A stretch of DNA of 29,783 nt from a virus, in IMG/VR virus record IMGVR_UViG_3300020215_000117, positions 1-29,783 of that record. One strand, given 5' to 3'. The notes under the pieces were generated by a model that did no database searches, was not told the origin of the DNA, and saw only the letters and a program-made list of their open reading frames with translations. Positions 7,628-8,548 of this stretch are shown piece after piece. The number at the start of each line of letters is the position of its first letter. Position 1 is the stretch's first letter. The translations under genes and the position numbers were made by a program.

Positions 7628-7867
7628 ATGAGCAACGAAACGGTTAATCCGGCACTGGTCGAGTACTGGGCGACGGCGCTTGAGGCCGTGGTCTTCGGGA
7701 ACTCGCATATGCGGTCCGAAGATGCGCGTGACGTGATGAACGTCGTGACCGAAATGCAGTCATACGCGCGCATTCATCGCAACCTTGCGGCGTCATCGCT
7801 CGGCGGCGAACGCATCAAGGCAAACAGTAAGGGCGTGAGACAGGTCGGAGAGACGGCCACGTATTGA
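7628..7867 (+). CDS. Small hypothetical protein
   Basis: A 79-residue protein with a good ribosome site (GGAGAAC before the ATG). No family is recognised. Residues 5-50 look helical (PALVEYWATALEAVVFGNSH, then MRSEDARDVMNVVTEMQSYA), the tail is basic. It sits alone between two structured non-coding stretches, and its last base is the first base of the 14-bp stem of the RNA candidate that follows. Confidence 0.6.
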   Translation: MSNETVNPALVEYWATALEAVVFGNSHMRSEDARDVMNVVTEMQSYARIHRNLAASSLGGERIKANSKGVRQVGETATY

Positions 7868-8331
7868 ACACGAACGACCGGAGCGGCGGCGTGGACGGAC
7901 ACGCAACTGATCGGGTCTGCTGGAAAGTCGCGGGGATGCTGTAAGTCCGACGCCTGCAACGATGGCGGCGGTAGGTGGGCGCCTTAACCGCGAGAAGTAG
8001 CAGTAGAAGCCGGTATCAAGCCCGGCCCGTTTCGGTCGTTCGTGTTGAGCACGTAACGAAAGACGTAATCCCGACTGTAGCGCATGCCCGACGTGTGCGC
8101 GTTTGTGAGGTTGATTCAGTTTCGACGCGCGAGCGTCATTGGCGAAGAGCAGCCCGAGCGCTCTAGCGGAGTCCGTAGCTGAAGAGCGGACACCAAGAGG
8201 GGATGTCCGACTTTCTGAGGGACTTGTGTCGGCCCCGACCTGATCAGTTGTGAACGATCTGGGATCAAGTGGCTCTCTGACCTGCGAGAAAGAACTTCTC
8301 AAGAGCAGATCAGGGAAAAACAAGTCCCTTA
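7867..8331 (+). ncRNA. Candidate large structured RNA, three domains
   Basis: About 500 bases (7868-8365) have no credible gene, but hold nested complementary segments. Domain I: AACACGAACGACCG (7867-7880) pairs perfectly over 14 bp with 8033-8046. Inside it are hairpin 7889-7904, stem 7917-7921/7999-8003, stem CGCGG/CCGCG at 7929-7933/7988-7992 with a purine-rich internal loop, and hairpin 8009-8026. Domain II: GCGCATGC/GTGTGCGC hairpin (8080-8100), GACGC-GCGA-GCGTC with a GNRA loop (8124-8137), and CGGACA/TGTCCG (8187-8209). Domain III: a 12-bp stem 8216-8227/8320-8331 closes a domain holding a long hairpin at 8277-8313. The GNRA loop exists only on the plus strand. I see no group I or II intron core, tRNA or tmRNA signature. 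Phages carry large RNAs such as GOLLD and ROOL; identity with these cannot be tested here. Confidence 0.65.
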
Positions 8332-8365
8332 TTGGCGCGGTGCAAGTTTAGCGAGAGGTGAGCAC

Positions 8366-8548
8366 ATGGGCGAGTCACACGGGATTTTGTCAGAAGTCGC
8401 GGAGCGCATCATTTCCAATTTGGAGCAGATGGCGTTGCCGGAAACGGCGCACGCGGAGCGCGCGTTGATGGTCGATGAAGTGACGGGCGTGCTGGAAACG
8501 ATGTTGACCACACTTGGGTTTGTGCGACTGGTGAAGCCCAATGAGTGA
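8366..8548 (+). CDS. Small hypothetical protein
   Basis: A 60-residue protein after the structured RNA region, with GAGAGGTGAG upstream of the ATG. It is mostly helical (HGILSEVAERIISNLEQMAL, then AERALMVDEVTGVLETMLTT) and has no family I recognise. Its end overlaps the next gene by eight bases. The structured region could serve as its 5' leader. Confidence 0.6.
   Translation: MGESHGILSEVAERIISNLEQMALPETAHAERALMVDEVTGVLETMLTTLGFVRLVKPNE

Follow-up and report, generated by a model that had tools for sequence, protein, structure and literature searches.

What is encoded by the stretch at positions 7867-8331 of the window, the window being the whole 29,783 nt of viral DNA analysed here (IMG/VR record IMGVR_UViG_3300020215_000117)? 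The phage concerned has RecT, NinB, terminase, portal and head genes, and for the stretch between two small genes of this phage the original prediction was a single structured RNA of about 465 nt, arranged in three domains and internally paired to a degree unmatched elsewhere in the window.

Extent of the RNA and its relatives

When compared with shuffled sequences, the 465 nt of 7867-8331 fold with a z-score of -3.82 (0/100), and their energy for their G+C content is the lowest of any + strand stretch of that length in the window, although by a small margin only (residual -2.30, next -2.07). Within this stretch, 7867-8046 has a z-score of -4.29. Its predicted 14-bp stem (7867-7880/8033-8046) is real, being the outer part of an uninterrupted 20-bp helix (7867-7886/8027-8046), as is the predicted 12-bp stem (8216-8227/8320-8331), which closes a fold with a z-score of -3.69 (8216-8331). 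The intervening 8047-8196, in which an 8-bp hairpin and a GNRA-capped hairpin had been pointed out, is random-like (z-score -0.82); both hairpins, like the nested stems pointed out within 7917-8003, can be read in the sequence, but the minimum-energy fold of the region does without the GNRA hairpin.

The BLASTN search for phage homologues that had been proposed for this stretch was run with 7860-8370 against 50,697 phage records. All matches were of 22-28 nt, all lay at window positions 8002-8029 and all fell in unannotated gaps of four phages, namely Pseudanabaena phage Pan3, Komagataeibacter phages phiKX1 and phiKX2, and Caulobacter phage DMCA, while nothing credible was found by DNA similarity among the phage records for 8047-8365. 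A 22-mer from the end of the latter segment was also without an exact match in IMG/VR. A match in a Rhodovulum phage was rejected, as it lay inside a coding gene and scored 19 bits with the covariance model R1, and matches that a short P3 query gave within mycobacteriophage tape-measure genes (E ≥ 0.2) were taken as chance. The four phage loci share two motifs at variable spacing, near GCGGCGTGGATGGACACGC and AGCCGGTATCAAGCCCGGCCCGC, and an exact scan of IMG/VR with the core of the second motif gave at least 119 contigs. From phages and prophages, 256 relatives (members) were parsed, with the layout P1, a 2-nt linker, P2 (loop GANGGA), an insert, a constant A, P3 (8-nt loop) and P1′ abutting P3. 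Model R1, whose training alignment did not include the window copy, matches window positions 7879-8034 with 63.5 bits (E 1.1e-12); the outer 12 bp of P1 in this copy lie outside the model. The features of the locus, all on the + strand, are as follows.

7867-8046, +: tRNA-like scaffold RNA including the insert, 180 nt (match to model R1; fold)
7867-7886, +: 5′ strand of P1, acceptor-like, 20 bp with 8027-8046 (fold; covariation in the family)
7887-7888, +: linker CG, in the place of tRNA positions 8-9
7889-7904, +: P2 hairpin, 5 bp, loop GACGGA (GANGGA in the family), D-arm-like (stem covariation)
7905-8007, +: hypervariable insert, 103 nt, occupying the anticodon-arm position
8008, +: constant A, directly 5′ of P3
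8009-8026, +: P3 hairpin, 5 bp, loop UAUCAAGC at 8014-8021, reading as a T-arm with one extra nucleotide (loop consensus; stem covariation)
8027-8046, +: 3′ strand of P1 (P1′), directly 3′ of P3 (R1 match; fold)
8216-8331, +: separate stable fold with a 12-bp closing helix, relatives not found

Since 8047-8196 is random-like and relatives were found only for 7867-8046, the RNA is taken to be 180 nt in length and not 465 nt. A structured phage RNA is therefore present as predicted, but the conserved unit stops at 8046 and the single molecule in three domains falls away. It could still be argued that the tRNA-like unit is the 5′ domain of one ornate molecule with 8047-8331 as its remainder, given the stable fold at 8216-8331 and the gene-free stretch between both folds; this is very improbable, as the other parsed members are closed by P1/P1′ and 8047-8365 is without similar DNA among the phage records. 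The fold at 8216-8331 may instead be a second RNA outside the scaffold family, unrelated to the neighbouring member.

The family is widespread. A complete IMG/VR scan for one P2 stem variant, which accounts for about 12% of members, gave 111 contigs, and from these two figures the family may be present in roughly 900 IMG/VR contigs. Among 84,980 species genomes, 97 stretches were picked up by a scan, for the most part from Alpha- and Betaproteobacteria, with Acidobacteria, Verrucomicrobiota, Planctomycetota, Nitrospira and Actinomycetes among the other titles (genomes or MAGs). With the covariance model, a copy was detected in three of 299 Pseudomonadota genomes and in four of 289 genomes of one class, both counts including the previously known G001. 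Relatives of the window were also sought through its neighbour gene of 377 aa, with none found, and through RecT, where none of 80 loci had the scaffold RNA. A literature search on motif strings and descriptive terms, from which subscription journals and preprints were mostly absent so that an earlier description is possible, returned no description of the RNA and no printing of the motif as RNA; the family is apparently undescribed so far.

The constant frame and its likeness to tRNA

The three helices of the frame were assessed in an alignment of 60 sequences, in which paired cells make up 98.5% as against 28-42% in slid controls, two-sided changes occur at 17 of 18 pairs, and the covariation score is 0.613 as against 0.159 after shuffling. 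Unguided RNAalifold returned exactly the same 18 pairs. In this alignment P1 shows covariation at every pair, P2 has two-sided changes at all five of its pairs and the P3 stem covaries also, so that the covariation looked for at the outer helix among homologues is overwhelming. Among the 256 members P2 occurs as 19 different stems, the linker is CG in 206 and CA in 50 (the parsing rule admitted only these two), and P1 has between 5 and 20 bp, most often 7-10, with the window copy at 20 bp. Because the parsing rules required pairing, a circularity check was run: when P3 was used to fetch members and P2 to place them, 87% had a P1 of 6 bp or more, in comparison with 6.1% for strands taken from different members. 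In addition, under rules that admit A-C as easily as G-U, the cells of the frame hold 70 G-U and 12 A-C (p 4e-11), which implies selection on an RNA of the + strand. By comparison of its members, then, the family is shown to have a constant three-helix frame with tRNA topology and a T-loop signature, under selection as RNA.

The tRNA T-arm carries the signature G53, U54, U55, C56, R57, A58, Y60 and C61. Members were also fetched by P2 alone, without reference to P3, and P1′ and a perfect 5-bp hairpin were located by pairing only; the loop consensus of these members is U-N-U-C-R-A-N-Y with G-C closing. Judged by this consensus, P3 is the T-arm of a tRNA into which one nucleotide has been inserted, while a minority of members have the P3 loop UACUCAAGC with two. 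It should be mentioned that in L027, L047 and L094 a long insertion is present in the P2 loop, a second site at which the frame is able to host extra RNA.

The T-arm signature and the acceptor/D/T topology make the frame tRNA-like. With tRNA it shares the acceptor-like P1, the 2-nt linker, a 16-nt D-arm-like hairpin with GG in its loop, and a T-arm with U54-U55-C56-R57-A58 and G53-C61 joined directly to the acceptor strand. It differs in having no anticodon arm and no CCA, in the extra T-loop nucleotide, in a D-loop of 6 nt, and in a P1 of 5-20 bp; a P1 of such variable length without CCA is not a normal tRNA substrate. Identity with tRNA was rejected, the anticodon arm and CCA being absent and the frame being missed by both ARAGORN and the Rfam tRNA model. 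On the window, ARAGORN neither recognised the tRNA-like frame nor found a tmRNA.

That no common RNA class fits the locus was borne out, as a search of the window with Rfam 15 gave no matches, nor did Rfam at E ≤ 5 match the RNA itself in L001-L005. At neither gathering nor permissive thresholds did the scans return an Rfam family for the RNA itself. In tmRNA a tRNA-like domain is combined with a long insertion that replaces the anticodon arm, and the scaffold RNA likewise has its insertion in that place. However, its inserts are mutually unrelated and so hold no conserved tag frame such as that of tmRNA, and a tmRNA turned up neither in the window with ARAGORN nor in the scanned loci with Rfam. 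The bacterial Y RNAs (YrlA), also of small size, combine paired ends with a tRNA-like module, as does the scaffold RNA, but the scaffold RNA is without an Rfam match, and since the pairs of its P1 vary freely this helix has no conserved Ro-binding sequence. In engineered tRNA scaffolds for RNA expression, foreign RNA is placed where the anticodon arm would be; these are laboratory constructs, whereas the phage arrangement is natural and evolves by insert exchange.

GOLLD and ROOL are RNAs without a known function that phages and prophages carry, often near tRNA islands, and the GOLLD linker sometimes holds tRNAs (PMC12286853). The original prediction had drawn a link to these RNAs. Shared habitat is as much of it as holds, in phages, beside tRNA genes and with a tRNA in the variable region of a few scaffold members; membership was rejected, as the Rfam models are without a match here, and GOLLD and ROOL are of 600-800 nt or more with other structures.

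The T4 RNAs rnaC and rnaD (species 1 and 2 RNA), whose functions are still unknown (PMC9697503), are also small phage RNAs (119-139 nt) encoded within a tRNA cluster, and rnaC has a T-arm-like CCGGGUUCGAAUCCCGG in its 3′ part. They were rejected as members, R1 having no match in L465 even at E 10, and the GANGGA hairpin is not seen in them. The 3′ end of rnaC itself (L465:1909-2047) is a canonical-looking T-arm, CCGGGTTCGAATCCCGG, which suggests that this RNA has a tRNA-like part.

On the covariation, loop consensus and topology above, the scaffold is almost certainly a new tRNA-like RNA family.

Exchange of the insert

Between P2 and the constant A, the inserts of the 256 members range from 30 to 179 nt, and 212 of them have no detectable relative among the other members. 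Similar flanks with unrelated inserts were found in 60 pairs of members, and similar inserts with flanks below the similarity threshold in 15. In L026 and L076, for example, the flanks are 94% (5′) and 99% (3′) identical and the inserts (69 and 50 nt) resemble each other no more than shuffles do, and the same pattern of alike flanks and unrelated inserts recurs in L022/L114 and L109/L206. Comparison of such near-identical loci shows that inserts are replaced between them as whole units. Tandem frames with differing inserts are also present in three loci (L097:5070-5333, L099:1704-2035 and L284:5273-5578).

Where an insert is shared, it is conserved together with its pairing. The inserts of L003 and L201 agree at 87 of 92 aligned positions, and compensating changes give CGCGCC/GGCGCG and CGUGCC/GGCACG in these two and CGCACC/GGUGCG in L250; compensating changes are found in L206/L235 also. 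One insert type, GAAGCTNTAG...GTAGGC...GCYGAA, is present in seven contigs in all of IMG/VR and always within the frame, although in one of the seven (L548) the frame match is weak at 25.5 bits. Five inserts, those of Pan3, L062, L084, L173 and L303, hold a whole tRNA, so that a tRNA is nested in a tRNA-like RNA; these Rfam tRNAs (34.9-47.2 bits) were located at L062:3788-3858, L084:3797-3866, L173:6873-6943, L303:1812-1884 and L002:2434-2499.

With most inserts lacking a relative and their folding being near random, they might be regarded as unconstrained filler, with P1, P2 and P3 alone of importance. As a group they are only slightly more stable than shuffles (mean z -0.46), the window insert folded alone (7905-8007) is no better than its shuffles (z -0.51), and crossing stems (pseudoknots) are in modest excess only. 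Filler would nevertheless leave the compensatory changes, the recurrent type in seven contigs and the replacement in place of drift without a cause, and is regarded as improbable.

Related elements that differ in the insert only would also be expected of an antisense RNA for superinfection immunity or regulation, in which the insert pairs with phage transcripts and sets the immunity type. In the loci available, which are partial genomes, the longest match between an insert and the locus that carries it, on either strand, is 10.4 nt, in comparison with 10.2 nt for foreign inserts, and the complementarity of the window insert to its own locus is shuffle-like, which makes a role of this kind quite unlikely. 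The reading preferred here is of a constant frame carrying an exchanged payload, for which confidence is high. To our knowledge, no other non-coding RNA exchanges RNA modules in this cassette-like manner.

Genomic neighbourhood and proposed role

In a subset of members a -10 box is present, as TANNNT occurs 52 times in the 5-nt bin lying 15-11 nt before the 5′ end of P1 and 4-18 times in other bins, and nine of the 24 best promoter matches begin exactly at -12 from P1. From the position of the box, transcription in this subset probably starts with the first nucleotide of P1. No promoter is recognisable for the window copy, which begins on the final base of the stop codon closing the ORF at 7628-7867, and this copy may be processed out of a longer transcript. 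Terminators downstream of the frame are in small excess only (15, with 7.9 expected).

A tRNA gene lies within 300 nt of the frame in 34 of the 256 members, on the same strand in 33 of these, as against 8.75 expected by random placement within those loci. In both phiKX1 and phiKX2 a tRNA-Met is located just upstream of the RNA. P1 starts 1 nt (L453), 2 nt (L418) and 3 nt (L267) after the CCA of a tRNA, an arrangement at three loci that is suggestive of processing of the frame by RNase P or Z. The orientation of the nearest gene is random (upstream 121 vs 119), the common neighbours are ordinary phage genes (terminase, portal, endolysin, HNH and methyltransferase), and no conserved protein partner was found among the member loci. 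In one phage contig a Burkholderiales-2 RNA of Rfam (L026:1542-1615, 93.5 bits) is present about 0.9 kb from a copy of the frame.

In some tens of loci, terminase genes are located downstream of the RNA at a distance of 0.6-2.5 kb. This placement would suit an RNA for packaging or head assembly comparable to phi29 pRNA, but most members are located elsewhere and in random orientation, with the terminase genes of the window 11 kb from the RNA, and such a role is highly unlikely. Least probable of the alternatives, and scarcely credible, is a DNA recombination site resembling the attC of integrons in place of an RNA. Inserts do resemble cassettes flanked by short conserved sequences; the strand-specific selection on RNA seen in the G-U count largely refutes this explanation, and the promoter placement and adjacency to tRNA genes fit a transcript.

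The T-loop consensus, the tRNA-like topology and the tRNA genes nearby would also suit a frame that acts through its elbow on translation or tRNA metabolism (the ribosome, EF-Tu, RNase P or tRNA-modifying enzymes), its insert merely tuning or stabilising it. That the frame is without CCA or an aminoacylation signal speaks against this, and the wholesale exchange of inserts, yet their conservation when shared, is left unexplained; this alternative is considered unlikely, though less so than the others.

Taken as a whole, the RNA is judged rather likely to be an autonomous tRNA-like scaffold for the display of structured modules that are exchangeable and, as far as their function can be inferred, probably directed at host defences. 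Under this proposal the tRNA-like elbow would lead to trimming, stabilisation or recognition by the tRNA machinery of the host, and the frame would serve as a natural 'tRNA scaffold' presenting a replaceable RNA module. There may be a division of labour, the frame providing stability and recognition through tRNA enzymes and the payload providing specificity. With less certainty, the modules could be decoys or inhibitors of targets in the host or in rival phages, such as RNA-dependent defences or tRNA nucleases, which would explain both diversification by swapping and the presence of whole tRNAs among them. Taken singly, an anti-defence role of the payload is doubtful. For a payload, tRNAs included, that is replaced and not slowly mutated, counter-defence or host-specific effectors are the best fit, although a tentative one. 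Equally speculative is a phage 'RNA display' system of shuffled modules, pseudoknot-like or tRNAs, each directed at a different host defence or host-specific task.

Were 'RNA display' to be true, the repertoire of inserts would be a library of counter-defence RNAs that is readable directly from metagenomes, and if inserts act on hosts the family would form a searchable catalogue of RNA effectors. The locus brings to light a phage RNA family that is widespread and for which a three-helix frame has been defined and a working model can be given, and the family offers a comparative handle on the very old question of why phages, T4 for example, make tRNA-like stable RNAs.
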